A DNA stretch of 59,681 nt, from the IMG/VR virus record IMGVR_UViG_3300040816_000388, positions 1-59,681 of that record; one strand, written 5' to 3'. This document shows, piece after piece, positions 6,409 to 47,745 of this stretch. Position 1 is the first letter of the stretch. The number at the start of each line of letters is the position of its first letter. Both the position numbers and the translations under genes were made by a program. The notes below the pieces were generated by a model that saw only the letters and a program-made list of their open reading frames with translations, did no database searches and was not told the origin of the DNA. This DNA is from a virus.

Positions 6409-7155
6409 ATGACTGTTGAAGCATATATACCCAAATACGAATTTATTACCACTACATTAAATAGTGCTAACATTGATATGGATTTATCAGAAGCAAAAGT
6501 TTTAGAACTATATGGTAATGCAGGAACACTACTAAACGATCCAGCAAACGATGTAGAAGAAGAAAACTATGTTTGTGTAGACTGTGACTTTGAAGCAATA
6601 GAACAAGGTAAAGAAGATTTTCCAGAAGCAAGTTTTAGGTTTTGGGATAGACATAATCAAATGGTTCATCCTAATGGTCAAATAGATTTACCAATTCCAT
6701 TAGAAGAAGGTGATAAATTTGATTTAATTTTCTGCTTTATGAAAACTGCAAACGTAGACCCTGAAATATTATTTGCAGATTTAGATAAATGTTACGAGCA
6801 TTTGAATCCAGGTGGTGCAATTATATTTACTGTGTTCATCAGAGAAGTAGCATTAAATTATTTTGTTGTAAGACGTACACATGAATACGGTATGTTAAAT
6901 AATAACCTTGTAGAGAGTACAGAAGGTTCAGGTGTTTTTGCTTTAATCAATAACGATGATGTAAGAGTTGATGTTGAAAGAGTACCAACTGAAGGTGATG
7001 ATGCTGTATTAGAAGCAACACATTACACTTGGTTTTGGAGTAACGAGTATTTAACACAAAGAACTAAAGATCACTTCCCAGAAGCAACTGTTACTACAAG
7101 GCGTTTACCACCTATGTGGAGTATTCAAAATCCTTTTGTTATTCAAAAGCCTTAG
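6409..7155 (+). CDS. SAM-dependent class I methyltransferase
   Basis: 248 aa. Shows the Rossmann methyltransferase order: motif I VLELYGNAGTLL (31-42), an acidic strand end in CVDCD (about 58-62), motif IV-like FDLIFCFMKTAN (about 104-115) and LNPGGAIIFTVF (about 134-145), which is the post-II LxPGG turn. No target-recognition domain is visible, and there is no DPPY/NPPY motif, so a DNA base N-methylase is unlikely; small-molecule, lipid, glycan or protein methylation are all possible. A strong AGGAG site precedes the ATG. It ends convergently, overlapping the opposite-strand oxygenase gene by 17 bp. A second methyltransferase of similar design lies at 14300-15082. Confidence 0.8.
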   Translation: MTVEAYIPKYEFITTTLNSANIDMDLSEAKVLELYGNAGTLLNDPANDVEEENYVCVDCDFEAIEQGKEDFPEASFRFWDRHNQMVHPNGQIDLPIPLEEGDKFDLIFCFMKTANVDPEILFADLDKCYEHLNPGGAIIFTVFIREVALNYFVVRRTHEYGMLNNNLVESTEGSGVFALINNDDVRVDVERVPTEGDDAVLEATHYTWFWSNEYLTQRTKDHFPEATVTTRRLPPMWSIQNPFVIQKP

Positions 7156-7825
7156 CGGCATCAGTAGACATACTAGCAATTAAATGTATTCTTTCTACAT
7201 TACTGTAGTTTGTAGCACAATGAGTCTTACTAGTATTTAAAAGATAAGAAGAACCGGCTTTAAAATGTGCCATTTCTAAAGGTATTGTTTCGCCATCTTC
7301 TTTTGGTGTGTTAAAGTTTTCGGGCCAGTTTACTAAAAAACATCTATTATTAGTTGTGATAGGAAAATGTATTCTCCAATCCATTATAGTGCCAGTACCA
7401 TTTAAAGTCATCATTAAAGGACTACCGTCTTTATGTATACTTAATGTTGTTCGTGGTGGTAACACACTTATACGCCATCTAAAGGCACCTTCTATACTAG
7501 TTACTAGTTGTTCTAAGTATGTGCCTTTTATGTTGTTTATAGGATGTATAAATCTACTTTCATCCACAAATTCATTTGTTTCATTTTCAAATTGTGTTTT
7601 TAAATCGTAACGTTGCTGTTGATTGTTGCTATATGTTTTACCAGCAATACCATCATACCATTCATCGCTATCAGGTTTAGAAACTGTAATGCATTGGTTT
7701 CTATGTGATATGTCTGCTAATTCTGTACCTAATGCTGATTCTTTATTTTTAATAAATGTTTGCTCAACATCACGTCTTAATTGTTGATAGTCAAAATCTA
7801 CTTTTATTTTTCTAAAAGGTTTCAT
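7139..7825 (-). CDS. Aspartyl/asparaginyl beta-hydroxylase-like 2OG-Fe(II) oxygenase
   Basis: 228 aa. Iron-ligand candidates are H131-x-D133 (IHKDG) and H202 (KTHCATN); R212 (ERIHL) is placed to bind 2-oxoglutarate. The strand RIHFPITTNN after the HxD and the Asn-Thr-Ser before the distal His are typical of the aspartyl/asparaginyl hydroxylase group. The substrate could be a protein side chain or a small molecule. Last gene of the six-gene operon starting at 11046, overlapping the previous gene by 4 nt (ATGA). Two other 2OG oxygenases directly upstream suggest a multi-step oxidation or several targets. Confidence 0.8.
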   Translation of the reverse strand: MKPFRKIKVDFDYQQLRRDVEQTFIKNKESALGTELADISHRNQCITVSKPDSDEWYDGIAGKTYSNNQQQRYDLKTQFENETNEFVDESRFIHPINNIKGTYLEQLVTSIEGAFRWRISVLPPRTTLSIHKDGSPLMMTLNGTGTIMDWRIHFPITTNNRCFLVNWPENFNTPKEDGETIPLEMAHFKAGSSYLLNTSKTHCATNYSNVERIHLIASMSTDAAKAFE

Positions 7826-8496
7826 GTTTGTAAACTAAAATCTTTTGGTTCTTTTAAATGCAATGCACTAGGTGTTACAACACCTGTAATAGTTAAGCAA
7901 TACCTAGGCCATAACCCTGCATTACCAGTAGCATGATATATACCTTCGGGCCAACAATGTATGTCTCCCATTTTATATTGATGTATTACATCATTGCCCA
8001 CACTAACATAATGTCCCCATTGCCAATCATTAAGTTGTACTAAGTAACGTATTACTTCAGTGTCGTCACTAACTTTAGCATGATTACGTCTATAGTTATT
8101 ATAACTATCTCTGTGCCATGGAACAAATTTTCCAGGTGGTTGTTCTAAGAACATAATTTGGGGATTCCACAAACCACTTGCTTGTCCTAATATGTTAAAA
8201 AATGGTCCTAAATTTCTAGTTTGTCTGCCGCCTGTATTGTGTTTAGTATATCCTGCTCTTGTTAAATCATTATGATATCCTTCCATAATTTCTTTTGCTT
8301 CATCATTAAAAGGTTTACCTTTGATACTTACTTCATCATAAGTATCGTCATCTGTTAAGTTATCAATTGTTTCTTGTACATATTTTTCTAACTTGTCGTG
8401 TACAAATCTACCAACGTATTGCACATCAGATTGTTTACTACTTGGGTCATAATGCCAAGGAAAATTTTGTTTATTCCATTCCCAATAACTGTCCAT
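7822..8496 (-). CDS. 2OG-Fe(II) oxygenase-like protein
   Basis: 224 aa. The double-stranded beta-helix signature is visible as H128-x-D130 (PWHRD), distal H188 (IYHATGNAG) and R198 (WPRYCLTITG). The phrase GDIHCWPEGIYHAT is typical of hydroxylases acting on amino-acid side chains, but the substrate is not predictable. GGAG lies about 4-5 nt before the ATG at 8496. It follows the 206-aa oxygenase gene immediately, with no gap, and overlaps the next one by 4 nt. It differs too much from its two neighbours to be a recent duplicate. Confidence 0.75.
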   Translation of the reverse strand: MDSYWEWNKQNFPWHYDPSSKQSDVQYVGRFVHDKLEKYVQETIDNLTDDDTYDEVSIKGKPFNDEAKEIMEGYHNDLTRAGYTKHNTGGRQTRNLGPFFNILGQASGLWNPQIMFLEQPPGKFVPWHRDSYNNYRRNHAKVSDDTEVIRYLVQLNDWQWGHYVSVGNDVIHQYKMGDIHCWPEGIYHATGNAGLWPRYCLTITGVVTPSALHLKEPKDFSLQT

Positions 8497-9117
8497 TTAT
8501 TCTCCATGTTCCATTCTAATTAAGGAACTGTTTACATACTCGGCACCTAATATAAATCTGTAACCGTCTATTCCATGTGTAAAGTCTGTGCCATGATATG
8601 ATTTATCAGTTGCTTCAAAACACATAGCATTTCCAGGAACATATTCTATTTCTTTTACAAAACTGCTATAGTCTGCTTCTTTAGTGTATAGTTTTGTACC
8701 CCAATCTTTGTATTCTCTGTCATTGAGACCTAAGTACACTAATAATTTTAATTTTCCTGCTCCATATTTACTTAGTTTTTGCCAGTCATCATTGTGTGGT
8801 CTTAATGGTTTATCTGGATTATCATATGTAAGGTTACAATTAAATACCCAATCAAATTTTTCATCTAATAAATCAAAGTAGTCTGCAACTTCATTTAATT
8901 GGGTTGTAATTTTTTTATTTAAATCAGGAGTAAATTCTATATCTACACCCGAGTTGTTTTGATATTCTCCATGTTCAAAGAACATACTCTTATCGTTAAA
9001 TTTATCTATATTTAATTTATTTTTACATCTATAATATAGTAAATGTGTTTCTTCTTCAGTGAGAAATTCTTCTAAAACAATATGTTTATAAGGATTATTG
9101 TATTCAATTATCTTCAC
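8497..9117 (-). CDS. 2OG-Fe(II) oxygenase (prolyl-4-hydroxylase-like)
   Basis: 206 aa. Iron ligands appear as H108-x-D110 (LRPHNDD) and H175 (SYHGTDF), with R187 (GYRFILG) as the 2-oxoglutarate arginine. The PGNAMCFEATDKSYHG stretch is the usual turn before the distal His in phage prolyl-hydroxylase-like enzymes. No extra domains. It overlaps the GH6 gene upstream by 14 nt and abuts the next oxygenase, so the three oxygenases are expected to be made in similar amounts. Substrate unknown. Confidence 0.78.
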   Translation of the reverse strand: MKIIEYNNPYKHIVLEEFLTEEETHLLYYRCKNKLNIDKFNDKSMFFEHGEYQNNSGVDIEFTPDLNKKITTQLNEVADYFDLLDEKFDWVFNCNLTYDNPDKPLRPHNDDWQKLSKYGAGKLKLLVYLGLNDREYKDWGTKLYTKEADYSSFVKEIEYVPGNAMCFEATDKSYHGTDFTHGIDGYRFILGAEYVNSSLIRMEHGE

Positions 9118-9955
9118 TGTTTCTCACTAATTGCTCTGCCATTTCTCCCCAAAATCTTCCTGCCCGAGGACCTTTGTTGGCTTTACCATCGCTTTCGCCT
9201 GGTATCTTAATCCATAAAAAAGCATCACATTGTTTCTCACCTGTATTACATGTTGGTGGTTCTCCTAATGCTCTTCCTGGAGGGTTACACCATTCGTTTC
9301 CATGTGGTCCATTACCATTACGACTAGTGTCTATTACAAAGTGGTCTTGAGGTCTGTGTTCACATACTTTTAAACCCCAATTCATACTTTCTTTTGTACT
9401 ACGATAATTGCTAACATTTACTGCAAAGCCTCTAACTTTATCGTTACATACACTATTTAACAATTTAGCGGCATCTTTAGGACTTAACCAATTACTATGT
9501 CCTATATCGACATAAACATGGGCTCTACAACTGCGTGTAAGCAATTCTAAGCCTTCTTTCATGAGGTCCATGCGCCAAAGTGCATCTTCTTCTTGCATCA
9601 TTGTAGTATGTGGGAGACTATCCGGTTCGTAAATCACAATAGGGGACTTATCTTTTATACCATTAGCAAAACTTTCTATAAAGTACAAATAACTATCTCT
9701 AGTTTTAGCACCACCTTTGCTGTATTGTCCTATATCTCTATTAGGCATATTATACAAAACTAATATTGGTAAGCCTGGATGTGTGCGTTTGAGTAATCTT
9801 TCTATGCTGTAATCTAGGTCACTTGTTTCTTTTCCGTTACGCTCTCCGTACCAGAATGAAACTGGATGTTCAAATATTTTACTTGCTAGTGGATATTGCT
9901 GTTTGTGATCTTTTACTCTATCAAAGTTATTGACCCAAAAAGGATAGTCCAACAT
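9104..9955 (-). CDS. Glycoside hydrolase family 6 (cellulase/cellobiohydrolase-like)
   Basis: 283 aa, close to a bare GH6 catalytic domain. Matches GH6 through the opening FWVNN, LPILVLYNMPNRDIGQYS (62-79), the catalytic-acid motif IYEPD (D112), FAVNVSNY (177-184), the signature FVIDTSRNGNGP (206-217), WCNPPGRALG (222-231) and KIPGESDG (250-257, candidate base D256). GH6 enzymes invert beta-1,4-glucan linkages. No signal peptide, carbohydrate-binding module or linker is seen, so the enzyme would act inside the cell, after lysis, or on the virion. It sits between peptide deformylase and three oxygenases in a late operon. Family assignment is firm; the natural substrate is not. Confidence 0.88.
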   Translation of the reverse strand: MLDYPFWVNNFDRVKDHKQQYPLASKIFEHPVSFWYGERNGKETSDLDYSIERLLKRTHPGLPILVLYNMPNRDIGQYSKGGAKTRDSYLYFIESFANGIKDKSPIVIYEPDSLPHTTMMQEEDALWRMDLMKEGLELLTRSCRAHVYVDIGHSNWLSPKDAAKLLNSVCNDKVRGFAVNVSNYRSTKESMNWGLKVCEHRPQDHFVIDTSRNGNGPHGNEWCNPPGRALGEPPTCNTGEKQCDAFLWIKIPGESDGKANKGPRAGRFWGEMAEQLVRNSEDN

Positions 9956-9956
9956 A

Positions 9957-10589
9957 TTATGCCTTCTTTAATTCTTTTTGTAGTCTTCTAATAGTTTTAT
10001 CTCGTTTCTTCATTGCTCGTTGTAATTTAAAATCACTAACATGTTGTATAAACAATTCGCCTTGTAAATGTTCAAACTCATGTTGGAAACATCTAGCATC
10101 AATACCATCCATCCAAGTTTGAACAACTGTTTCGCCATCTGACTTTGTGTATTCTACTTTTACTTTTTCAGGTCTTGTAATTTGTAAATAAATTAAAGGA
10201 AAACTTAGACAGCCTTCTTCATATAAATCATCACTGCCTGCTGTTTCTAGTATCTTAGGATTAAAGCAACCAATGTCACCAAGTATAGAGTGCTTCATGA
10301 CAAACAAGTTATAACTATTTCCTATTTGAGGACATGCTAAACCTATGCCAATTTTGTCATGCATTAGGTTGCACATTTCAATTTCCCTAGCATTCCAATC
10401 TGCGTCAACACTAAAAGGGTCAATGTTTGCTCTTCTTCTTAATGCTGGGTGATTAGGTTGTACAAGTTCACATTTCCAATTATCTGCAGATACACTTATA
10501 TCTGATGTAGATGCCATATTGGCAAAAGGATCGTATGCTCTAATAGTAGGAGTTGCTGAGACTACAGTTATATCAGGTTTTTTTGACAT
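9957..10589 (-). CDS. def: Peptide deformylase
   Basis: 210 aa. All three deformylase motifs are present: GIGLACPQ (family GxGLAAPQ), EEGCLSFP (family EGCLS, the Cys being a metal ligand) and HEFEHLQG (family HExxH, the other two ligands and catalytic Glu). The enzyme removes the N-formyl group from new proteins. Phage deformylases are known from marine cyanophages. The N-terminal ~40 residues (from the ATG at 10589) precede the core and might be shortened; an internal start is possible. Gene is flanked by the membrane protein gene (17-nt overlap) and GH6 (1-nt gap). Confidence 0.92.
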   Translation of the reverse strand: MSKKPDITVVSATPTIRAYDPFANMASTSDISVSADNWKCELVQPNHPALRRRANIDPFSVDADWNAREIEMCNLMHDKIGIGLACPQIGNSYNLFVMKHSILGDIGCFNPKILETAGSDDLYEEGCLSFPLIYLQITRPEKVKVEYTKSDGETVVQTWMDGIDARCFQHEFEHLQGELFIQHVSDFKLQRAMKKRDKTIRRLQKELKKA

Positions 10590-11046
10590 GTTTCTTTTTA
10601 AAATCTATTTTAATTACTTCTGCTCGATTTAAACGTTGAGCAATATCATATGCAACTACTACGGTTAAGCCACTTGCTAAAAATCTTAAATCAAACAATA
10701 ATGCTTCTAAACTAAATGGTGGGAACCATTGTCCGGTGTTTGCAAATATATGCCACACAAACCAACTAGCAAACAAAGATGTATACATACGATCTTTAAA
10801 AAATTCACTAATAAAAGGTGCTAATGCAATAGCGGTATATGTTGCTATCATACTGTTATGGAAACCTATAATAGCATCAGACACAAACATTACTGCTAGT
10901 GGTAATAAAAATGCAAAATTATTTTTTGTTAGGAATGGTGTTAAAACAGCAAGACCTAGCAAAGGTTCGCTATTGGCGGGAAGTGGTAAAAGTCTACTCA
11001 ATACTAATACTCCAAATATTAGTATTGCTGTTTTTAAATAATTCAT
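10573..11046 (-). CDS. Multi-spanning membrane protein (DUF6580/ECF S-component-like)
   Basis: 157 aa from the chosen start. Four to five hydrophobic helices cover most of the protein (ILIFGVLVLSRLLP, AFLLPLAVMFVSDAI, IATYTAIALAPFI, an aromatic stretch with WFVWHIFANTGQWFPP, and FLASGLTVVVAYDI). The pattern resembles small membrane proteins of the DUF6580 or ECF-transporter substrate-binding type; the ligand is unknown. An upstream extension in frame would run through the tRNA-Pro gene, so it is rejected. The ATG at 11046 is preferred because a GATAAATA late box ends 5 nt before it. First gene of the operon with deformylase, GH6 and the oxygenases. Confidence 0.75.
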   Translation of the reverse strand: MNYLKTAILIFGVLVLSRLLPLPANSEPLLGLAVLTPFLTKNNFAFLLPLAVMFVSDAIIGFHNSMIATYTAIALAPFISEFFKDRMYTSLFASWFVWHIFANTGQWFPPFSLEALLFDLRFLASGLTVVVAYDIAQRLNRAEVIKIDFKKKHVKKT

Positions 11047-11051
11047 ATCTA

Positions 11052-11059
11052 TATTTATC
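11052..11059 (-). promoter_or_regulatory. T4-type late promoter (GATAAATA), leaderless spacing
   Basis: On the minus strand GATAAATA is followed by 5 nt and the ATG at 11046. It drives the six-gene operon down to 7139. Confidence 0.7.
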
Positions 11060-14313: not shown

Positions 14314-15082
14314 CCAAAAAGTCTGCATTATTATAAAATTTTTGCAAATCTTCTATTGTGTTGTCCACCTCATTTCTGTTTATTACCACAGTACGTTGAA
14401 CGTGATGCTGTGGAGGAAACTTCATTTTATGTTTTATATTTAGTTTATTTAGGTATGATGACAACCATTTAATATTATAAATGGTAACTAAAAAGTCAAC
14501 ACTTGCATCACTGTACATCTCATCTACTAATAAGTCGTGATCTACTAGATACATATAATCTGTAATGTTTGATTTTGATATTTCTTCGAATGTAACAGTT
14601 TTCTTACTAGGATTATCATATGCTCTCTTTTCGGTAAAAAACTTAACACCAGGAGTGTCTATTACTGTAAATGCAATTGAGCCGTTTGGTTTACATACTC
14701 TAAGTAATTCAATTAAATCAAATATCATTTGTTTAAATGTAGTGTGGCTGTATATACTATATCCACAAATTAAATCAAATGTTTCATCCTCAAACGGAAA
14801 GGGAGTTTCGTGTGTGCCGTTTTCATTGTAAGCATGATTAAATGCTTCGTGCTTTACCCAGTTAGCATCTGGATTATTCATTTTACCAAAGTCTAAACCT
14901 TCTTGATCGACATCTAAAGAAGTGTATTGCTGTGGTGAAATTAGTTGTAAGTCTAAAAGGTCTTCTAATAAGTTTCCTCTGTTACCACCTATATCTAATA
15001 TAGTAGCATTAGACCAATCCGGTCTACCATGCATCATATCAAAAAAATCGTATCTAGGTTGCCTAGGGAATATATTGCCCAT
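14300..15082 (-). CDS. SAM-dependent class I methyltransferase
   Basis: 260 aa. Motif I is ILDIGGNRGNLL (28-39), followed by SLDVDQEGL (acidic residue that holds the ribose), FDLICGYSIYSH near the middle (motif IV position) and RVCKPNGSIAFTVID. Built like the methyltransferase at 6409-7155 but not a close copy. No NPPY-type motif, so a DNA N-methylase is unlikely. It overlaps the GT2 gene upstream by 1 nt (TAATG) and belongs to the two-glycosyltransferase unit, so methylation of a sugar or glycan is a reasonable but unproven role. Confidence 0.82.
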   Translation of the reverse strand: MGNIFPRQPRYDFFDMMHGRPDWSNATILDIGGNRGNLLEDLLDLQLISPQQYTSLDVDQEGLDFGKMNNPDANWVKHEAFNHAYNENGTHETPFPFEDETFDLICGYSIYSHTTFKQMIFDLIELLRVCKPNGSIAFTVIDTPGVKFFTEKRAYDNPSKKTVTFEEISKSNITDYMYLVDHDLLVDEMYSDASVDFLVTIYNIKWLSSYLNKLNIKHKMKFPPQHHVQRTVVINRNEVDNTIEDLQKFYNNADFLVDLI

Positions 15083-15999
15083 TACAATATCAACTTATGA
15101 TCGTCTGGTAGTCTTTCCTTAGTAGACGGGATATCCTCTTCTTTTTTATTGATGCTATCAAATTGACCAGCACCTTTTGGGTTATGTTTGCCAGCAAAAT
15201 CAAATGGATTTATTTCCCCTGCTAAGAATTGTTCAAATGGACTCGGTGAACCTACTTCTCCTACTCTTTTTAAGAACCAATCAATCTTAGTTGCATGATG
15301 CATTCTTGCTTGTTGCATATTAGGGTGATTGAAATCTGCTGGATCTTCTGGATTTCCTTCCATGTACTTTCTATTTGCAAAAGTTTCATCATCGTTACCA
15401 CCAGTCAAGTCTGCTCTATCGTGTAACACTTCGATATCAATCTTTTCAAATATGCCGGTCATTTTAGCAATAACACTAACCCATGTATCATTTTGTGCAT
15501 TCATACTCCATGCATCACATAGTATAAACCAGTCTGCTGGAATAAGTGGGAAAATAGCAAAAGGATGATCATGGTTATCATGAGGTGATAACAATTTAAA
15601 CTGTCCATCATACTCTCTGACTTTGCTATCCCAACCTTTTGTTTGCATTAAACAATCATCATTCCATAAAAATAACCACTGCCCACTTGAACTATGTGCA
15701 AGTAAGTTTACATAAACATTTAGTTTTTCATATCCCAATGGTTGAAATACTTTTGCTTTACAGGCACAGCCATATGGCTCTACAAATTTTGCGGCTTTAT
15801 CGTTTACCCAATCTAAACTTTCTTGATCGTCTTCATCAATGCCAAGCATTATTTCAATGCCTTGTGGTTCGTCTGCTAGTTCTAAAAGACTTTTTAAACT
15901 TGCTTCTAGTGTTCCACTTTCAACCCTACCTCTTGTAGGAAGTATAATACTAATAGAACTTTTTCTAATAGACTGTTCTGGATTTGCTTGTATTCCCAT
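15082..15999 (-). CDS. GT2-like glycosyltransferase
   Basis: 305 aa. Starts with the GT-A nucleotide-binding strand SISIILPTRGR (about 16-26), has a mid-domain LGIDEDDQES and a DxD-like WLFLWNDDCLM (around 117-126), and continues to about residue 220 before a Pro/Asp-rich tail without a known domain. This order fits family 2 glycosyltransferases. No membrane helix. Donor and acceptor unknown; phage targets could be virion proteins or modified DNA bases. It is 4 nt downstream of the next glycosyltransferase gene and 1 nt overlapped with the methyltransferase. Confidence 0.75.
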   Translation of the reverse strand: MGIQANPEQSIRKSSISIILPTRGRVESGTLEASLKSLLELADEPQGIEIMLGIDEDDQESLDWVNDKAAKFVEPYGCACKAKVFQPLGYEKLNVYVNLLAHSSSGQWLFLWNDDCLMQTKGWDSKVREYDGQFKLLSPHDNHDHPFAIFPLIPADWFILCDAWSMNAQNDTWVSVIAKMTGIFEKIDIEVLHDRADLTGGNDDETFANRKYMEGNPEDPADFNHPNMQQARMHHATKIDWFLKRVGEVGSPSPFEQFLAGEINPFDFAGKHNPKGAGQFDSINKKEEDIPSTKERLPDDHKLIL

Positions 16000-16003
16000 A
16001 TCT

Positions 16004-16936
16004 TTACCCTGTTATTAGTTTTCTAATGTTACCACGGAATGTGTAATGCCCTACATGATTAAGAGCAGTTCTTGGATCTAAGTATACTTCACCTCCCATA
16101 TTTTGCCACAGTCTACAGAATGTGTAGTCTTCTGACAAGTAACGTCTACTTTCAGGATCAATCATTGTATCAAACAATGCATACATGTGTTTTTCAAACT
16201 TTTGATCAACATTGATATCATTAGCATATTTTAATTCTGGATGTTTATCAAACATTTTTTGAATAACGTCTCTTTGAATACACATAAATCCTGTACCAGC
16301 ATCTTTTAACTTAATTAAATTATCTCTAATTTGAATTTGTGGTAATGGTTTACCTTGTTCATCTTTCAAGAAATCAAAGTTTACAACATAGTTTGAACTA
16401 TGTCCTTCAATTGTTTGTGCTGTTTCTTGATCGTTACTTCTAGCGGCATTTACAATGCTATCCCAATTGATTGCTTTTTTAGGATATGCACCTACTGTAA
16501 CTGGTTTATCGTAAGCAACCATTCTCAATAAATCGTTTGGGTCAAATTCAATATCTGCATCAATAAAGAATAAGTGTGTTGCTTCAGGATGTTCCATAAA
16601 GAAACTTACAAGTGTATTTCTACCTCTTGTAACTAAACTTTCATTTGCTAATGTGCTTACAGTATATTGAATATCAAATTTATTACAGAGAATAGCAAGT
16701 CTCATCATACTTCTAAAGTATGGTTCACCAATTTGCCCACCATAACAAGGTGTAGCAATAAAGATATGCTTATCTCTTAAAACTTGTACTGGAATTTCTA
16801 TTTTGGAATCTAATAGATTGTATAGAACATCGTCGTTTTTGTTTACATCTACATTTTTATTCACTACTTGTTGCTCCTGCTGAGCTGGTGCGTTCTTTGT
16901 AGTATTTTTTGTGGTTTTCTTTTTGCTTCTTGCCAT
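16004..16936 (-). CDS. GT-A fold glycosyltransferase
   Basis: 310 aa. A Lys/Thr/Gln-rich tail (1-~45) is followed by a GT-A domain: KHIFIATPCYGGQIGEPYF, then ATHLFFIDADIEFDPNDLLR, which contains the DxD metal site (about 127-129). Further along, AGTGFMCIQRDVI and SEDYTFCRLWQNMGG are typical acceptor-side motifs of Anp1/GT2-like enzymes. Similar proteins occur in T4-like marine phages. First gene of the unit with GT2 and methyltransferase; the promoter is a sigma70-like one 34 nt upstream, so this unit is expected early. Confidence 0.8.
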   Translation of the reverse strand: MARSKKKTTKNTTKNAPAQQEQQVVNKNVDVNKNDDVLYNLLDSKIEIPVQVLRDKHIFIATPCYGGQIGEPYFRSMMRLAILCNKFDIQYTVSTLANESLVTRGRNTLVSFFMEHPEATHLFFIDADIEFDPNDLLRMVAYDKPVTVGAYPKKAINWDSIVNAARSNDQETAQTIEGHSSNYVVNFDFLKDEQGKPLPQIQIRDNLIKLKDAGTGFMCIQRDVIQKMFDKHPELKYANDINVDQKFEKHMYALFDTMIDPESRRYLSEDYTFCRLWQNMGGEVYLDPRTALNHVGHYTFRGNIRKLITG

Positions 16937-22458: not shown

Positions 22459-23060
22459 TTTGCTAAGTCCTTAAATTTGTCAAAGTGCATACGCCACACT
22501 ACTTGTGGTACTGCATAAAATTCTGTAATGCCTTCTGGTTCTGCTATGCCTTTACGTTTCCACCAATTTTTTGCTACATAATCTGTAATGGTATTTGCTG
22601 TTTTAACATAATTATCAGAATATGCTTTATTGGCTAATGTTGTTCCAAAGGTTGCTTTGTAGTTAGGCTGTTGCGTTGCCCATTCACAATTAAAATATAG
22701 TAAGCCATCAAACTCAGGCATTTCACCTCTACCATATCTTCTTGTTGTTGTCATTGGTATATCTTGATTAGGTATTCTACATAGCCTTGTCCAAATTCTA
22801 TAATAACCTTCTTTGTATTCAGGCATGTACTGTACACCAGCAACTGCATATATTTTTTTAGTTGGAATATGTATCATGCAATGATATTGAATTTCATCGA
22901 TTTTCATTGCTTCTGGTGATGCGTTGTTGATATAACCTAAATCTTTTGCTACACTACAAAATTCTTCTAATTGAGGTAACCAGTCATTGTCGTATTCTAT
23001 ACAACCAATTTCACCGTTAAAGAAAGTTCTTAGGATTTTTTTACTGTTGAGATCAACCAT
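22455..23060 (-). CDS. Hypothetical protein, possibly GNAT-like
   Basis: 201 aa. The central KIYAVAGVQYMPEYKEGYYRIWTR resembles beta strands of the N-acetyltransferase core (AVAGVQ, then a strand with Arg), but the acetyl-CoA-binding Q/RxxGxG/A loop cannot be identified, so the link is weak. Conserved-looking aromatic residues in the second half (FNCEWATQQPNY, WWKRKG). The ATG at 23060 has AGG at -6 and gives a shorter overlap with the desaturase gene than the ATG at 23084. Confidence 0.6.
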   Translation of the reverse strand: MVDLNSKKILRTFFNGEIGCIEYDNDWLPQLEEFCSVAKDLGYINNASPEAMKIDEIQYHCMIHIPTKKIYAVAGVQYMPEYKEGYYRIWTRLCRIPNQDIPMTTTRRYGRGEMPEFDGLLYFNCEWATQQPNYKATFGTTLANKAYSDNYVKTANTITDYVAKNWWKRKGIAEPEGITEFYAVPQVVWRMHFDKFKDLAK

Positions 23061-23797
23061 CTGCCTACGTCCAATTCGTACCATTTAGTATTAAAGTTTA
23101 GTCTTCGAGGTTTAGCATGATGATTGTTATGTAAACTTTCACCCCATGTAAATAATGCTAACCAAGGATTGTTTGTACTGTTATTTTTCATTGGAGTAGT
23201 TGCATACGTCAAACCTTTGATAGGTGTATGTCCAAATACATTTACTATTCCACTTATAACTAAACTTAAATAACTTGCATTTAAACTTGCAAGTAAATAT
23301 CTTCCGTCATGCCACCATATAGTCATTAAACCTATAATTACTAAATTTAATATTACTAAAAAGTAATAATTTCTATGACACCAAATTGAATAAGGATCTA
23401 AAATCTTTTTTACTTTAAAAATTTCTTGTTGTGCAAATCTGTGATTCTCTTTATGAAAAATCCATCCTGCAAATGCATACCATAATCCTTTTGTAGGAGT
23501 ATGCACATCTTTATCTGTGTCTGTATGTGCGTGGTGACTTCTGTTGTGTATTAGGCTCCATGTTACTGGTGAGCCTTGTGCTCCTTGACAACCTAAATAT
23601 AATAAAAACTTTCTTATAGGTTCCCAAGTTTTAAAACTTTTATGACTATGTAATCTATGATATCCAACTACTATTCCATATCCACTATACAATGTTGTAA
23701 AGAATAATGTTGCTAACCAAAGTTCTGTTGAGCCATAGACAAGACTCCAAACAAAACTTAATATTGTAACAGGTATAAACAGTAAGTAAAATATCAT
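23030..23797 (-). CDS. Fatty acid desaturase (membrane, copy 2)
   Basis: 255 aa. Three histidine boxes are present: H47RLHSH52, HNRSHH (84-89) with following HTDTDKDVHTP, and SLHNNHH near residue 220; these hold the diiron centre of acyl desaturases. Hydrophobic spans at 1-~20, ~25-45, ~125-140 and ~160-175 fit the usual four-helix membrane arrangement. Likely introduces a cis double bond into an acyl chain, delta-9 type by resemblance. Overlaps desaturase copy 1 by 4 nt. The two copies differ clearly. Confidence 0.9.
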   Translation of the reverse strand: MIFYLLFIPVTILSFVWSLVYGSTELWLATLFFTTLYSGYGIVVGYHRLHSHKSFKTWEPIRKFLLYLGCQGAQGSPVTWSLIHNRSHHAHTDTDKDVHTPTKGLWYAFAGWIFHKENHRFAQQEIFKVKKILDPYSIWCHRNYYFLVILNLVIIGLMTIWWHDGRYLLASLNASYLSLVISGIVNVFGHTPIKGLTYATTPMKNNSTNNPWLALFTWGESLHNNHHAKPRRLNFNTKWYELDVGRWLISTVKKS

Positions 23798-40248: not shown

Positions 40249-40256
40249 TATTTATT
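40249..40256 (-). promoter_or_regulatory. T4-type late promoter (AATAAATA), leaderless spacing
   Basis: One mismatch to TATAAATA; ends 6 nt before the ATG at 40242 and touches the stop codon of the SOD fusion gene. Confidence 0.58.
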
Positions 40257-41383
40257 TAGGATTTTTTCTTGCCGCCTTTCATGTTGGCACACCAGTGATA
40301 CATTTTACCCTTCTCACCACTGTACTTTTTTGCTTTTGCACGGAGACTACTCACTGAGCCTTTGCAACTGGCTCCTGCCTTCTTTACTCGGCCTGGTCTA
40401 CTCTTGCCTTTCTTCTTGCCGTCAGCAAAGTTTTCGTCCATCTTAGAACGTAATAAATCCTTAAAGTAATTTTCTGCCATTACTGCTCTGTCACTTGTAG
40501 TGTGGTCAAATGCTTTCATTACGTCTTCAATGTCTGCATCAATAATTATTGCTGGTACTCTTTTAATACCTAATATATGTGCGGCATCGTATCTGTGATG
40601 TCCGTTTATGAGATATCCTTTCCTATCTACAATAAATGGCCTGTCTGCATTTTTTAAAAATACGTCTTCTGCTTTTTTACTTAATCCATCTACACGTTGG
40701 CTTTGTACTGGTTTAATTTTATCTATACTGATTTTACCTTCCTTATAATCAAAATCTGAGTTTTTGATATGACTTCTTCTAATTTGAGGTAATTCATTTC
40801 TGTTAAAATGTTTATCGCTTAATGCTCTGTTGTAATCTTCTTCTATTGAACCTTTTAATCTTATTACACCACAAGCAACTCTATCACCTGCATTGCCTGT
40901 TTTTGTGCTTTCTTCGTCTCCACCTTGACCTAAATCATCTGTATCAGCATGTATTACTATTGCTCTGCCTACTACATCATGTAATTGTACCCTCGGTGCT
41001 TTGAATTGGAACCTTGCAATACCTTGATCGTCTGCTTTGATGTTTCCTAAGTCACCCACATGTCCGTGTTCTAATCCACCGTGTTCTACGCCTTCTGGAT
41101 TATAATGTCCTCCGGCACTAGCACAACCGTCACTTAGATCGCCAAACTCATGTATGTGGAAACCATGTAATCCAGGAGTTAAACCTTTTACTATTCCTTT
41201 GATTATTGTTTCTTCGCCAAATTTTTGTTTGAATTTTACAAATCCTGTAACATCTTCTGGTGAATGTTCCAATTGACATATTGCTTTTATGGTTTCATTA
41301 GACTCTGTGATAGATTCTAACTTAGAGCACTCACAAGTTTTTGCTTTTGTCTTAGGACAACTTTGAAAATCTACTGCTCTCAT
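40256..41383 (-). CDS. Cu/Zn superoxide dismutase - ParB/Srx-like - basic phage module fusion
   Basis: 375 aa, three parts. (1) ~35-178: Cu/Zn SOD with GFHIHEFGD (H76, H78), GGHYNP (bridging H93), H101, H108, D111 as zinc ligands, IHADTDD (H145), disulfide pair C87/C171 and R168 in GDRVACG; all ligands intact, so activity is plausible. (2) ~245-285: FIVDRKGYLINGHHRYDAAH, the GHHR box of ParB/sulfiredoxin-like domains. (3) ~316-375: basic tail with C340 and C365 (ASCKGSVSSLRAKAKKYSGE) seen in other marine phage proteins. No signal peptide. Its ATG overlaps the stop of the 2120-aa gene (TAATG). Likely made late and possibly packaged. Confidence 0.88.
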   Translation of the reverse strand: MRAVDFQSCPKTKAKTCECSKLESITESNETIKAICQLEHSPEDVTGFVKFKQKFGEETIIKGIVKGLTPGLHGFHIHEFGDLSDGCASAGGHYNPEGVEHGGLEHGHVGDLGNIKADDQGIARFQFKAPRVQLHDVVGRAIVIHADTDDLGQGGDEESTKTGNAGDRVACGVIRLKGSIEEDYNRALSDKHFNRNELPQIRRSHIKNSDFDYKEGKISIDKIKPVQSQRVDGLSKKAEDVFLKNADRPFIVDRKGYLINGHHRYDAAHILGIKRVPAIIIDADIEDVMKAFDHTTSDRAVMAENYFKDLLRSKMDENFADGKKKGKSRPGRVKKAGASCKGSVSSLRAKAKKYSGEKGKMYHWCANMKGGKKKS

Positions 41384-44300
41384 TACTTAAATCCAAAGGC
41401 AAATTTGCCACCTATTCTTGAACTGTAGTAATTTTTACTGCCGTCTATTTCTACTGTACCTTGGAAGTTTGGCGGATATACAGCCTCCCATCCTGTTACT
41501 CTAGCATCATCTCCTTGTTTACCCATTTTACAATATAACTGTACAATACTGGATTGGTTAAGAAATGCTACACAACCTTGTCCAAACTCTGGACCCGATT
41601 CATTTATAAGTCTAGTAACCTTTTTAGCAAGTAAGGCCAACAATGCATAACCTGTATTAAACCCTGCAACATCTTGTCTCGGTGTACCATAATTAAATAG
41701 TTCTGTTGCGGCTTGACTTAATCCTGCATAGTCTTGTTTGCCTTGTTGTATATAACCATTGATTTCTTCTTCTAGCCCTTGTGGTAATGCTTTGTATAAT
41801 TCTGCTAATCTAAAAGGACCATCTTTAGCACTATTGCTTTGTACAATGTTTATGATTTTTACAGTTGTAGGATATTGTGCTTTTAATTCTTCTGATGCTT
41901 TTAATATAGCATCTTGTATATTCTTAACACTTGCTTTAGCACCTTTACCACCCTTACTGCTGATACCTACTCTAGTACCGTCTGGTGCTGTAAAGTAACT
42001 GTCAACTAGTGGGGCATTCATTGCCATAGGCCAAAATATACTACAACTTGCCCATGGTTGACCTTTTAATAAATCATTTTTGGCATCATCTGCCTGACCA
42101 CCTACCATTTCACTCATTAGTGCAACCGGACCCATTATCTCACCAAAGTAATCTCTTAATGCTGGTAAGTTTTTGATCTGTCCTGGAAACACAGGATGTT
42201 CCTGTGTATGAATTGTTTCTAATGCATTTACTAATGCTTCTGATAAGTCGTTACCTGCAGAATTTTTCTTTACTGTTTGTATAACATCCATTACACCATT
42301 AAATTCATCATCTGTTTTAATTAAATGTTGTGGATCTATGCCAATGTCTAATTTCATTGCTCCAGCAGTTTGTAATTTCCAACCAAGTGGTACTTGACCG
42401 TTGCTCCATTTACCCATCATATCTGCTGTTTTTTGTTTAAAGTATCTTCCCCAATATGTTGGTTTATCATTTAATTCTGGATCTGTAAGTGTAGCAATAC
42501 CAAATGCTAAACTACCATTATTAGGAGTATTAGTCCATTCTATTTGACTATTGATTTCTTGTTCTGTTGCTCTAATAAATTCATCTCTGCTTTCTGGATC
42601 AGGGAATTGCATTTCTTCTTGTGGGTATAAATCTACACGTTGAAACTCTAATTGATCGTTTCCTTTTTGAAATCTATCGCCAACAACTCTTCCCATTATA
42701 CCTTTTGCTTCTAAAAGAGATTTAACGTGTTGCTTACTCCACTCATTGATATTGAGTTTTGCTTTTACTTCCGGTCCTAGTGTTTCTGCATAACCTCTAA
42801 CAATACCTCTTGCACATGCATCATCACCGGCTTCTGCTCTTAAACGTTTAAAATCATTTAACATTCCTGGAACAGGTATTGCTGTAAAGGCTAACATTTG
42901 TTTTTTAAGATCGCTTACTGGAAAATGATCTGCTAATAATTTGTTTATAACTACAATAGTATCATTGTTTGGCGTGGCATCTTCTTTAACTTTTTTCTTT
43001 TTCTTTTTCTCTTTAGGTAAATCTTTAAGCAATGCCGCCATGTCTTGGCCTGCTTCTATTGTTTCATATAACTTATCAATTTTAGTTTTATTTACTTTTG
43101 ATATAATATCTAATTGTTCTTGTAAAGGTAATGCATCAAATTTATTAAACACACTTTCTAATTCTGGGTTACTAGGTGAATTGCTGAGTCTATTTCTAAC
43201 TATTTCTCGTGCTTGAGCTATGGTCATAGGTTCGCCGCCACCTGATTTATTACTTACAAGTGCTTGTAATATCATATTCTTAGTGCCGCCTGGAGTAACA
43301 TCTCCATTTAGTATAGCAACAAGTTTATTTACTTCGGCTTGAGGCATGTAGTTTTGTATGCCATCTTGCATCATTCTATCAAAAAGTTGATATGCATCTC
43401 TGGCAGATTGATAACCGCTATCACTACCATACATACCACTTACATCATCACCATCACTGCCGTCTGGATTCTTTCTGAAATAGTTTCCACCACTAACATT
43501 ATAGTTCTTTTTGATGTAATCTTCTGCGGCTAAAACTGCGGCGGCCCATCTACTGCCACTAACTACATTTCCACCATCTGGTGCATATTCTTTTTCTGGT
43601 CTCCAATCATGGTTACCGTCAAATTGTTTGTATGCTTTCTTTAAAAGTTCTGCACCTTGGTCATTTACACCACGTGTTATGCCTAAGTGGTCTGCCAAGT
43701 TGCCCCAATTTGTTTTACTTGCTATGCCATTAGAAGATTCTCGATCATAGTCTTCTACACCACCTGCTCTTAATAATGATTCTACTTTGGTATTAAATGC
43801 TGTTGCTTTGCTGTCTATTGCTTTTGCTTTTTTAGATAATTTTGGATTGTTTACATGCCATGCCGCGGCACTTGAAAACTCAAATGGTTCGCCTAAATCA
43901 CTGTTGAGTTCTTTTCTTGGCAATAGAGGTTCGTGCCCTAACCCATTCATTCCCTCTCTTCCGTCGCCGAGAGAACCATTGTCAAAAACAACTCCTCGTA
44001 ATTTTAACTTTTGTTTGATGTTATGATCGTTGCCACTAACATATCTATTCAAGAAATTATCTATACTAACTCTATACTTGTCTCTAAATGCATTGTAGAT
44101 CTTTTCGATTTTTTCTTCTCTCCAAGTATCTTTAATTTTTCTGTACATGTGATTTCGTTGCTTATAGGCTTCTCTGGCTATAGATTCATGACTTGTTGGC
44201 ATTTGTATACAGAAGTCATATGAGCTGTTTTGATTATTCCTAGCCCAATCTAAATAACCATATAAACTACGATCGGAATAAGAGTCTAATTCATCAATCA

Positions 44301-47300
44301 TTTCTTTTCTATAATATAAGTCGCCGCCAAAATCAAATGTTTTTACAGTTGCCAATACTTTACTGTTCTTTTTAGTAAACTCTCGATCTTTTTTATCTAC
44401 TTTGAGTTTATTATCTATTTGATCTTGTTGAGAGTCAAACCCTAGTTTTTGTGTAACTTTATCAAATGAAACCATAAACTGTTTAATTGCGTCTAAACGT
44501 TTTCTAATTAAGTCAGGTACAGGACCCATTTTATAAACACTTGGCTTTGTATCTTTTAATCTATAGTATTTGTCAAATGAACCTCTAAAGAAATCTTGTA
44601 GCAAATTTTTATAATCTTCTGCTACTGTATCTCCAATTGATCTAGGAGTGAATCTCCCGCCGTCTATTTCATCAATGATATCTTTTAACCTTTCTGCTGT
44701 ATATCCAGTTAGACCAAAAAAGGCTTGACCATCTCTTTGGGTACCTGCATCAGTACCATCTAGTTCACTGTATTTGTCAAGCATCATGTCATCGGATGTT
44801 TCAATAACGTCATACATACTTTTTACAGATTTGTTTATTTCTTTTAAACTATCTATATATAATTGTAAATCTTCATCTTTAATTCTATCTAATTCTTCCC
44901 AACGAGTTCTATACTTAATCATAAACTTGCTCAGCCAATTATCTGTATAATTGTCGCCGCCTTGCACTTTTAGATTTACACCTTTACCAACTGGTTGAGT
45001 GTAAGGTTTGTATGATTTTAAATGATCAATAAATTTATTGTATCCTTCTTTAGATATTGGATCGCCAGGGCTAACCCAATGGCCGTCAACTGGCCCGTAT
45101 CCAAAAGAGCCACGTGTTATACCACCAAAGAACTCTTTGTATTCCGTTTTAAAAGAAGGTTGCTCTATTTGTGTTTTCCAAGCATCTGCTACTACTTTTT
45201 TACTTCTAGTTGGTAATACATCTGCTAATTTAGAAATAAATTCATCATATTTTTTGCCTTTGAGATCATCACTGTTTATAGCACTCCAGATACCTGATGC
45301 TATTTTTTCTACTTGTGGACCTGATGCAAATGATGGTAATTCCACAAACTCCTTTTTAAATAATCTTTCTACACCATTTTGAGCTCTTTCCAATGTTGTT
45401 TGTGGAGAAACTGTTTTATTTGTAAAAATTTCTCTATAAGATTTAGTAATCATTTTGCCTAATTCATCGAGAGTAAGTTCAAAATCTTTAACAGTATTTC
45501 TCAATATCCCAATACCTTTTGCACTTATGACATCTCTGTTTAAATTTTGGTTTAAGTCATAACCTGCCTGTGCTACACCTAGTGCAAATTTTTCTTGAGC
45601 TTTTTTAAGTAAACCTTCTTTTTGTAATCTATCAGTCTCTACATCTTCTTTTAATCCAGGTTTTCTTGCTTTTAGTGTTTTATATCTATGTAAATTGTTA
45701 AATGCACTAGCAAGGATAAACATAGATTCTACATAATTTTGTTTGTTAAAAAATCCTTTCAACACATTTACTGCTGGATGTTCTGCACCATCATCAAATC
45801 GGCCTTTTGTTCTTTCATCATCACGATCACTAATTGAATCTAACTGATTTATAAAGCGGAATAATGCTTTTGCATAATCTTTATTATATGCGTCGTCACC
45901 TTCAGTAGTATATCCTGCTGTCATAGTTGTAGCATAACGGATTACTGCTTTTGCAACCTTGTTAAAATCTAAATGGTAATCGTCGCCGCCGCCTATTCTA
46001 AATTCTACAAGTTGTTTTCCGGTATCTGGATCTGTTTGATCTTTAAAGTTTATAGAACTAAATTTGGCACTATCAATGCCTTTGCTTAAAATACTTTCTA
46101 TACCTTTAATAGTTTTTGTATTTTCTGGATTTGCTTTGAGCTCTGCCGCTTTTCTTTTTAGGCTATCTATTTGGCTTTTTGCATAACTGTTATTTTGTCT
46201 GCCAAACGTACTTAATAAATATTTGTCGCCAAGTAGCATTGCTATTTTTAACTTGTTTGGGCTATTCTCCACCCTGTTATTTGAGGTTCCTTTGCCTTGG
46301 TAACTCATAGTAACATGTAACCCTGTTGAATGGTTTGTTTCTACCCCCATGTCACTAAAAAAATTAAAAAGACTTTTCATCTCTTCAAGCATTTTACCGG
46401 GTGAACTGTAAACTGGACTGATAATTTCTGCACCAGTACCTGAGTAAATATCTATACTACTATCATCTTCTACTGCCCATGTGTCATACCCACTAGTACT
46501 ACCATACTCTCCATATTCTGCACGATTGGTAAAATCACTATATTGCTCTGACCAGTTATTTAAATAGTCTGCTACTTCTTCTAATCCGCCGCCGCCCTCT
46601 GGATTACTTATATAATAATCTCCAAGCTCGGCTAAACAATTACCCCAACCACCATATTCTCTATTTGCCCATACATCTATGTCGTATTCGGTCTCTATTT
46701 CGTCAACGGCTTCATCCATTGCTTCACCAGACTCACGTATTGCTTCTTCTATCCATTCGATTAAATCATCTTCTCTTTCTTCTTCTGCGTACTGTCTTCC
46801 CCAAGCAATAAAATCCCAATCTTCGTATTCTTCTCGTTCTTCTTCTGGCAAGTCATCTAGTATGCGTTCTTTGTATTCTTCTATGTCGTCTTCGTCTAGT
46901 TGATCTTCAACAAAATCATTTATATAATCTTCATCTTCTTTTCTATCTTGTGTCATACGGGAAATAATTTCGCCTTCCAAATCAAATGCCATTTCGTAGA
47001 CCCATTCTCTGTATGCTTCTTCTATTTCATTTACAGCACGTCTGCCAATTTGATCATAAAGTGCATCTTGTATCTCATACCATGTATTTTCATCAGCCCA
47101 GTTTTCGTCTTCACCGCCGCCATATACTTCAGTCCAAACAGTTTCTGCTTCAAAACCACATTTAATTGGTGCTGTTAGAGCCGCTTGTCCTATTTCTTTT
47201 TTATTAAAATTGATTTCAAATATTTGCTCTCGGCCTTGTTCGCTGAGTTTATGCTTTCTTGCTAATTTTTTAACACCTTGATTATCTTTGCTTCTAAATT

Positions 47301-47745
47301 TTATTCCAGATTGTGTTTTCTTAACAAGTGTGCCCAACTTACCTTCATCAACTAAAGCATGTACTTCATCTTTGGGATCTAGTAATTGGTATTCACCTTT
47401 TTTGTCTTGTACTACAACTTTATCAGGATTTGGTTTATCACCTACTTTACTTACAACTTTACCCAATGGGTTTCCATCTTTGTCATTGTACTCTGAATCT
47501 ACATCTAAATCACCTGCTTTGATAGGTGTATATTTAGGTAGTTCCTCTGGTGTAGTGTCTACACCTTGTGTTGTTGGACTGCCTTTATCTGGTTTTGCTG
47601 TAGTTTTTTGTGTGGTGGGACTTGCTACAGCATTTGCTTTTGCATTTGCACCAATTTGTTGTCCACCTACTGCGGTAGGTGTGCCTGGCTTTAATCCATA
47701 TTCATTTAGTAATGATTGAAAAGTTCTTACATCCTTAAACTTCAT
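41383..47745 (-). CDS. Giant predicted capsid-targeted protein with amidoligase-like domain, 2120 aa
   Basis: The N-terminus MKFKDVRTFQSLLNEYGLK resembles a capsid-targeting peptide with an LNE protease site. A Thr/Pro linker follows. From ~195, KCGFEAE and downstream acidic/aromatic sequence with HSTGLHVTMSYQGKG (~465-480) and EFRIGGGDDYHLDFN (~590) match the layout of amidoligase/glutamate-cysteine-ligase-like enzymes. Residues ~600-1500 have no recognised domain. A KEKKKKKKVKED stretch lies near 1605, and a GTRVGISSKGGKGAKASVKN element near 1910 may be part of a nuclease-like fold, weak. Coupled to genes on both sides. Function unknown; head packaging is inferred. Confidence 0.75.
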   Translation of the reverse strand: MKFKDVRTFQSLLNEYGLKPGTPTAVGGQQIGANAKANAVASPTTQKTTAKPDKGSPTTQGVDTTPEELPKYTPIKAGDLDVDSEYNDKDGNPLGKVVSKVGDKPNPDKVVVQDKKGEYQLLDPKDEVHALVDEGKLGTLVKKTQSGIKFRSKDNQGVKKLARKHKLSEQGREQIFEINFNKKEIGQAALTAPIKCGFEAETVWTEVYGGGEDENWADENTWYEIQDALYDQIGRRAVNEIEEAYREWVYEMAFDLEGEIISRMTQDRKEDEDYINDFVEDQLDEDDIEEYKERILDDLPEEEREEYEDWDFIAWGRQYAEEEREDDLIEWIEEAIRESGEAMDEAVDEIETEYDIDVWANREYGGWGNCLAELGDYYISNPEGGGGLEEVADYLNNWSEQYSDFTNRAEYGEYGSTSGYDTWAVEDDSSIDIYSGTGAEIISPVYSSPGKMLEEMKSLFNFFSDMGVETNHSTGLHVTMSYQGKGTSNNRVENSPNKLKIAMLLGDKYLLSTFGRQNNSYAKSQIDSLKRKAAELKANPENTKTIKGIESILSKGIDSAKFSSINFKDQTDPDTGKQLVEFRIGGGDDYHLDFNKVAKAVIRYATTMTAGYTTEGDDAYNKDYAKALFRFINQLDSISDRDDERTKGRFDDGAEHPAVNVLKGFFNKQNYVESMFILASAFNNLHRYKTLKARKPGLKEDVETDRLQKEGLLKKAQEKFALGVAQAGYDLNQNLNRDVISAKGIGILRNTVKDFELTLDELGKMITKSYREIFTNKTVSPQTTLERAQNGVERLFKKEFVELPSFASGPQVEKIASGIWSAINSDDLKGKKYDEFISKLADVLPTRSKKVVADAWKTQIEQPSFKTEYKEFFGGITRGSFGYGPVDGHWVSPGDPISKEGYNKFIDHLKSYKPYTQPVGKGVNLKVQGGDNYTDNWLSKFMIKYRTRWEELDRIKDEDLQLYIDSLKEINKSVKSMYDVIETSDDMMLDKYSELDGTDAGTQRDGQAFFGLTGYTAERLKDIIDEIDGGRFTPRSIGDTVAEDYKNLLQDFFRGSFDKYYRLKDTKPSVYKMGPVPDLIRKRLDAIKQFMVSFDKVTQKLGFDSQQDQIDNKLKVDKKDREFTKKNSKVLATVKTFDFGGDLYYRKEMIDELDSYSDRSLYGYLDWARNNQNSSYDFCIQMPTSHESIAREAYKQRNHMYRKIKDTWREEKIEKIYNAFRDKYRVSIDNFLNRYVSGNDHNIKQKLKLRGVVFDNGSLGDGREGMNGLGHEPLLPRKELNSDLGEPFEFSSAAAWHVNNPKLSKKAKAIDSKATAFNTKVESLLRAGGVEDYDRESSNGIASKTNWGNLADHLGITRGVNDQGAELLKKAYKQFDGNHDWRPEKEYAPDGGNVVSGSRWAAAVLAAEDYIKKNYNVSGGNYFRKNPDGSDGDDVSGMYGSDSGYQSARDAYQLFDRMMQDGIQNYMPQAEVNKLVAILNGDVTPGGTKNMILQALVSNKSGGGEPMTIAQAREIVRNRLSNSPSNPELESVFNKFDALPLQEQLDIISKVNKTKIDKLYETIEAGQDMAALLKDLPKEKKKKKKVKEDATPNNDTIVVINKLLADHFPVSDLKKQMLAFTAIPVPGMLNDFKRLRAEAGDDACARGIVRGYAETLGPEVKAKLNINEWSKQHVKSLLEAKGIMGRVVGDRFQKGNDQLEFQRVDLYPQEEMQFPDPESRDEFIRATEQEINSQIEWTNTPNNGSLAFGIATLTDPELNDKPTYWGRYFKQKTADMMGKWSNGQVPLGWKLQTAGAMKLDIGIDPQHLIKTDDEFNGVMDVIQTVKKNSAGNDLSEALVNALETIHTQEHPVFPGQIKNLPALRDYFGEIMGPVALMSEMVGGQADDAKNDLLKGQPWASCSIFWPMAMNAPLVDSYFTAPDGTRVGISSKGGKGAKASVKNIQDAILKASEELKAQYPTTVKIINIVQSNSAKDGPFRLAELYKALPQGLEEEINGYIQQGKQDYAGLSQAATELFNYGTPRQDVAGFNTGYALLALLAKKVTRLINESGPEFGQGCVAFLNQSSIVQLYCKMGKQGDDARVTGWEAVYPPNFQGTVEIDGSKNYYSSRIGGKFAFGFK

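Follow-up and report, generated by a model that had tools for sequence, protein, structure and literature searches.

A conserved GH6 endoglucanase-like gene without export features in giant phages related to Pseudomonas phage PA5oct

The stretch of DNA analysed here (the window: 59,681 nucleotides, a linear fragment of viral record IMGVR_UViG_3300040816_000388) encodes a complete GH6 catalytic domain, a match that is not due to chance, and, judged from tree and locus comparisons, the gene is fixed and old in one clade of giant phages. The reading that we prefer, at a probability of roughly 45%, is that an active GH6 enzyme is made late in infection, released at lysis and used to cut a cellulose-like host glucan for the spread of progeny; the activity, the late expression, the release at lysis and the nature of the substrate are each something that we infer. 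More tentative still is the broader proposition that a cytosol-adapted GH6 is the standing lysis or dispersal enzyme on which a whole giant-phage clade depends. The features on which the argument draws are the following.

7139..7825, minus strand: aspartyl/asparaginyl beta-hydroxylase-like gene (PF05118, E 5e-5, barely above the cut-off), with relatives in 54 loci
7822..8496, minus strand: 2OG-Fe oxygenase-like gene by pattern only (HRD..H), with relatives in 24 loci
8497..9117, minus strand: 2OG-Fe oxygenase-like gene by pattern only (HxD-type, by eye), overlapping the GH6 3' end
9955..9104, minus strand: GH6 endo-beta-1,4-glucanase-like gene (283 aa, from an ATG at 9955 to a stop codon whose last base is 9104)
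9957..10589, minus strand: peptide deformylase (PF01327, E 6e-31; phrog_2890), its stop one base before the GH6 ATG
10573..11046, minus strand: DUF6580 membrane-protein-like gene (PF20221, E 7e-11), first gene of the predicted operon
11052..11059, minus strand: late-promoter-like element GATAAATA, separated by 5 nt from the ATG at 11046, heading the predicted GH6 operon
15082..15999, minus strand: putative glycosyltransferase with a GT2-like N-terminus (weak SpsA profile match, E 0.04; tentative)
16004..16936, minus strand: putative glycosyltransferase-like gene (relatives match Anp1 weakly, below the cut-off; tentative), found in 34 viral loci

The earlier note on this DNA had proposed a GH6 cellulase-like glycosidase at 9104-9955, nearly complete and with intact motifs, and Pfam, phmmer and Foldseek agree with it down to the coordinates. 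By Pfam and by alignment to bacterial enzymes the ORF is a bare catalytic domain without a signal peptide; it matches PF01341 (Glyco_hydro_6) with E 8.2e-54 and 184 bits (the cut-off being 27), over profile positions 12-300 of 305, and phmmer against the PDB returns M. tuberculosis Cel6 (1up0, E=1.9e-54) and T. fusca Cel6A (1tml, 3.4e-51). Structure prediction, which the note had suggested as a check, gave a model with mean pLDDT 92.5 and pTM 0.92 from 36 aligned sequences, the addition of bacterial and distant viral rows having mended an earlier model (pLDDT 78.8) whose active-site loops were poor. In Foldseek the GH6 endoglucanases rank at the top (1uoz: TM 0.90, rmsd 2.1 A, 35% identity) and the best 50 matches are GH6 enzymes throughout, which gives the predicted model the distorted-barrel fold of the family; the best 50 matches in a viral structure library held no GH6 match for the window protein. 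Its length, set beside those found in the structure search, fits the endo type better than the longer exo enzymes.

The active site is intact. In the phmmer alignment D74, D112, D150 and D256 of the window protein correspond to D79, D117, D156 and D265 of T. fusca Cel6A, and the subsite residues W35, Y68, W156, W222, K250 and E254 correspond to W41, Y73, W162, W231, K259 and E263; D117 of the T. fusca enzyme is the catalytic acid, and the roles of the matched residues are those of established GH6 enzymology. None of the four aspartates or of these subsite residues varies among the 45 representative phage sequences (45/45), so that the loss of catalytic Asp in relatives, which the earlier note had named as evidence against its proposal, was seen in none of the phage relatives examined. 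Phage GH6 is also under strong purifying selection, with a pairwise dN/dS of 0.02-0.11 in the 14 pairs with measurable dS (one more pair was saturated). A degenerate or inactive enzyme is ruled out by this conservation together with the dN/dS values, and the window gene probably encodes a catalytically competent endo-beta-1,4-glucanase, which as a member of the family would hydrolyse its substrate with inversion.

The phage origin claimed for the window is upheld by its collinearity over about 50 kb with a viral contig of 339,794 bp (G001), whose GH6 is 77% identical, and by the virus-only clade described below; the same two facts rule out a contaminating bacterial contig. The T4-like character attributed to it finds its support through G001, which has a T4-type capsid gene (the window itself has none) and resembles Pseudomonas phage PA5oct in capsid (70% identity), portal (53%), terminase (56%) and late sigma factor gp55 (45%), with further homologues of the PA5oct sheath, baseplate, tail lysozyme and endolysin, the last being a cell wall hydrolase (PF07486, E 6e-24). 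The collinearity and these genes assign the window to a giant phage of the T4 superfamily, PA5oct (Arenbergviridae) being the nearest isolated relative seen, a relatedness judged from selected genes of G001, all outside the window, in a contig that is perhaps incomplete. A cyanophage host was considered by way of psbA and set aside, none being present in the 340-kb relative, which is weak evidence; the closest phage genes for RNR, DnaB, deformylase and desaturase disagree as to host. The fatty acid desaturase (23030-23797; PF00487) has matches in only three phage records. Two further genes of G001 deserve mention: a ferredoxin-like 4Fe-4S protein with a DUF3470 tail (L096:13048-13395, minus; G001 ~153,048-153,395), which adjoins the PF07486 hydrolase gene, and a 690-aa protein with CHASE2 sensor and class III adenylate/guanylate cyclase domains (L101:9449-11521, minus; G001 ~249,449-251,521), preceded by a late-type motif, a sensor-type nucleotide cyclase being unexpected in a phage.

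Two scans of IMG/VR found 76 more loci with GH6 relatives at 53-92% identity, making 77 viral loci with the window. Peptide deformylase, which the earlier note had placed in the same operon, lies upstream of GH6 in 67 of the 77, usually directly before it, and 50 of 67 deformylase ORFs outside the window end between 25 nt inside GH6 and 10 nt before it; ten loci keep GH6 without a deformylase in the fetched sequence, two of them truncated by a contig end. One copy (L067:2086-2904) carries a TAA about 10 residues short of the usual end while a family-like frame continues past it, and is either slightly short or has a recoded stop. Prevalence was gauged independently of GH6 by anchoring on the upstream glycosyltransferase-like gene (16004..16936 in the window; 34 viral loci): each of the contigs reaching 10 kb downstream of the anchor carries GH6 (16/16), within that distance in 14 and elsewhere on the contig in the other two (L041, L022). 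Some of these represent one phage species sampled several times, and hence they are not all independent. A wider profile brought the total to 198 viral stretches with GH6-like matches, some from unrelated viruses; the PA5oct genome has no GH6 match, and of 50,697 phage records only three matched, two of them for Streptomyces phage Gilgamesh and the third a faecal contig without annotation. In the reading that we prefer, GH6 is a core, standing gene of a clade of giant phages akin to PA5oct.

A tree of 96 GH6 domains, made by a quick method with SH-aLRT support only, joins the phage clade and three deeper viral sequences in one group (99% SH-aLRT, stem 0.58) with no bacterial sequence inside it. 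A phylogeny with bacterial GH6 had been proposed as a check, with placement inside a bacterial group as the adverse outcome; the gene falls instead in this virus-only clade, and the best bacterial identities to phage GH6 are 40-47%. The bacterial sequences come for the most part from Actinomycetota, with two plasmid-borne ones from Pseudomonadota, since a genome scan with phage-derived patterns found Actinomycetota only, and a closer donor may belong to another bacterial phylum.

As to the compartment in which the enzyme folds, the absence of a signal peptide had been claimed and holds true: in the alignment the window protein begins at about the point where mature bacterial domains start after theirs. 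Bacteria and fungi ordinarily export enzymes of this family to degrade cellulose. Secreted bacterial GH6 enzymes typically have, besides a signal peptide, two conserved disulfides, traits that are not family-defining and that the phage enzyme lacks. The Cys75/Cys119 pair is found in 0 of 45 phage sequences as against 39 of 39 bacterial domains; of the second pair C223 is kept and its partner C259 occurs in only 11 of 45 phage sequences, while a new Cys243 is invariant across the 45. The missing signal peptide and the lost first disulfide make folding in the cytosol likely, the pattern being what would be expected of it rather than proof. M. tuberculosis Cel6 and T. fusca Cel6A, which resemble the phage protein in fold (TM 0.85-0.90, 34-35% identity), in catalytic and subsite residues and in having the length of endo enzymes, with none of the loops that cellobiohydrolases add, differ in precisely these respects, since they are secreted whereas the phage GH6 has no signal peptide, no Cys75/Cys119 and the new invariant Cys243. 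These features weigh against an auxiliary metabolic gene by which environmental or algal cellulose would be turned into sugars for the infected cell, the reading given to viral GH6 genes in sediment viromes (PMC8725595): without an export signal and with a disulfide lost, the enzyme would not act outside before lysis, and its predicted late expression also speaks against such a role, which we consider quite improbable.

Timing is suggested by a sequence element. The T4 late promoter is TATAAATA and its cyanophage counterpart NATAAATA (PMC2984593), both of which the ATAAATA element resembles, being a match to the consensus. Exact TATAAATA occurs in the window at few sites, fewer than chance, and it is the shorter ATAAATA together with its spacing to an ATG that is informative. 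Across the window and G001, 27 ORFs have ATAAATA (mostly GATAAATA) at a spacing of 12 or 13 nt from their ATG, with a gap of 5-6 nt between GATAAATA and the start codon; no ORF has it at spacings 7-11 and four have it at 14-23. In the same scan eight control 7-mers reach at most five at spacings 11-13. Seven of these ATGs are in the window (3869, 18666, 20711, 26679, 40242, 50205 and 58289) and the other 20 ORFs in G001 (L090-L105), and the genes so marked include terminase, tail tube and head-tail connector. The deformylase ATG has ATAAATA exactly 12 nt ahead of it in 25 GH6 loci; the window and several other loci have the element ahead of the ORF upstream of deformylase, L067 has it ahead of GH6 itself, and in 20 loci with a deformylase no such element was present in the 4.5 kb upstream that was scanned. 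The window arrangement, GATAAATA, five nucleotides and ATG at 11059-11046, fits that of a T4-type late operon with a TATAAATA-like promoter, its first ATG being that of the DUF6580-like gene, for which the listed ORF begins at a TTG (11112). Given the link of the motif with structural genes and the gp55 homologue encoded by G001, GH6 is predicted to be a late gene, and the late operon, a guess when first put forward, thereby gains the backing of a promoter-like motif. Should GATAAATA function as the T4 late promoter does, transcripts would begin at the ATG or next to it, and late mRNAs across the giant phage would be near-leaderless.

A late cytosolic glucanase without export could reach a polymer outside the cell only through lysis or on the virion. 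Under the reading that we prefer, GH6 would be transcribed late with peptide deformylase, would fold and accumulate in the reducing cytosol, would be set free at host lysis and would then cut a beta-1,4-glucan of cellulose type, in the host envelope or in the matrix surrounding host cells, allowing progeny to escape and spread. The earlier note's remark that a planktonic host offers no obvious cellulose finds support neither for nor against it: many bacteria secrete cellulose, and at least one phage, Erwinia phage S6, uses the bacterial polymer as a receptor (PMC9544554). The main rival, which we hold to be unlikely, is a virion-borne depolymerase that digests a cellulose-like capsule or matrix at attachment. 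A late-type promoter is compatible with a virion protein, the GH6 gene of phage Gilgamesh adjoins minor tail genes, and Erwinia phage S6 depends on bacterial cellulose for its first receptor and has a verified cellulase of family GH5 (PMC9544554). The phage GH6, however, is a single domain with nothing extra to anchor it, its operon partners are deformylase and oxygenase-like genes rather than tail genes, and it lies outside the structural module of G001, about 100 kb from the capsid genes. What favours release at lysis is that the protein consists of the catalytic domain alone and that its gene is not among structural genes; the lack of an anchoring domain and the distance from the capsid genes are the only points that tell it apart from carriage on the virion.

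Endolysins are typically late, cytosolic, signal-less and single-domain, a profile that GH6 would share if it were a muralytic helper cutting the glycan strands of peptidoglycan to aid lysis. This alternative is serious in kind and rather improbable in our estimate: the Streptomyces GH6 enzyme CslZ, which has no binding module, hydrolyses cellulose, chitin and peptidoglycan via its catalytic Asp (PMC9040799), but G001 already has a PF07486 cell wall hydrolase and a tail lysozyme, and the cellulose subsites of the phage GH6 are all retained.

An intracellular role, in which GH6 would trim or block the host's own cellulose-like polymer or work with the nearby putative glycosyltransferases, seems to us as improbable as a metabolic one. 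Since cellulose is synthesised at the membrane and leaves the cell during its synthesis, a cytosolic enzyme would rarely meet it. Many GH6 loci do have two glycosyltransferase-like families 3-6 kb upstream, that of 15082..15999 being kept 5 kb upstream with relatives in 45 loci, and the Streptomyces GH6 is part of a cellulose-synthase cluster (PMC9040799); the glycosyltransferase assignments are nevertheless weak, PDB searches for the identities of these and of the oxygenase-like genes yielding nothing firm. The oxygenases that the earlier note had listed stand in part: 7139-7825 has its weak Asp/Asn beta-hydroxylase match, while 7822-8496 (no family match in Pfam or PDB searches) and 8497-9117 (no Pfam family match) show a pattern only. 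The interpretation offered there is likewise partly supported, with GH6, phage origin, missing signal and late operon borne out and the role, given as host surface, virion or lysis, still a list of options, narrowed by compartment (cytosolic folding) and time (late) without direct proof.

The GH6 family and viral GH6 are already known, the latter listed among auxiliary genes on viral contigs of the Mariana Trench and Aral Sea viromes (PMC8725595, PMC9948696); in the accessible parts of these reports, with which we compare by description only, they are given as single genes without analysis of synteny, clade or compartment. What had been listed as stray metabolic extras is here fixed, old and under strong purifying selection in one clade, and a non-exhaustive search of the open-access literature found no account of a giant-phage clade in which a cytosol-adapted GH6 is fixed as a standing gene. 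Among the nearest comparisons, CslZ is of similar size and likewise lacks a binding module but is a cell-surface lipoprotein encoded in a cellulose-synthase cluster, acts on chitin and peptidoglycan as well as on cellulose, and is not phage-borne (PMC9040799). Gilgamesh protein 72 is a phage-encoded GH6 with 38% identity to the window protein, yet it is longer, adjoins minor tail genes and occupies a separate branch of the tree. Erwinia phage S6 directs gp095 (GH5) and gp094 (GH48) against cellulose, as proposed here, but these are multi-domain enzymes of other families in a small podovirus for which cellulose is the receptor (PMC9544554).

A fixed GH6 without export features shifts attention from borrowed host metabolism to phage biology, that is, to release, spread or entry. 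It suggests that these giant phages, mostly from environmental samples, must cut a cellulose-like coat in order to spread; if so, their hosts wear a cellulose-type coat as a third layer to be broken on exit, beyond membrane and wall, and the prediction is that those hosts carry a beta-1,4-glucan layer.

Two other ORFs of the window merit record: 40256-41383 has a Cu/Zn superoxide dismutase domain (PF00080) within a larger protein for which ParB-like PHROG families are matched as well, and 41383-47745, which is conserved in G001, encodes 2120 aa without a match in PHROG or, above the cut-off, in Pfam.
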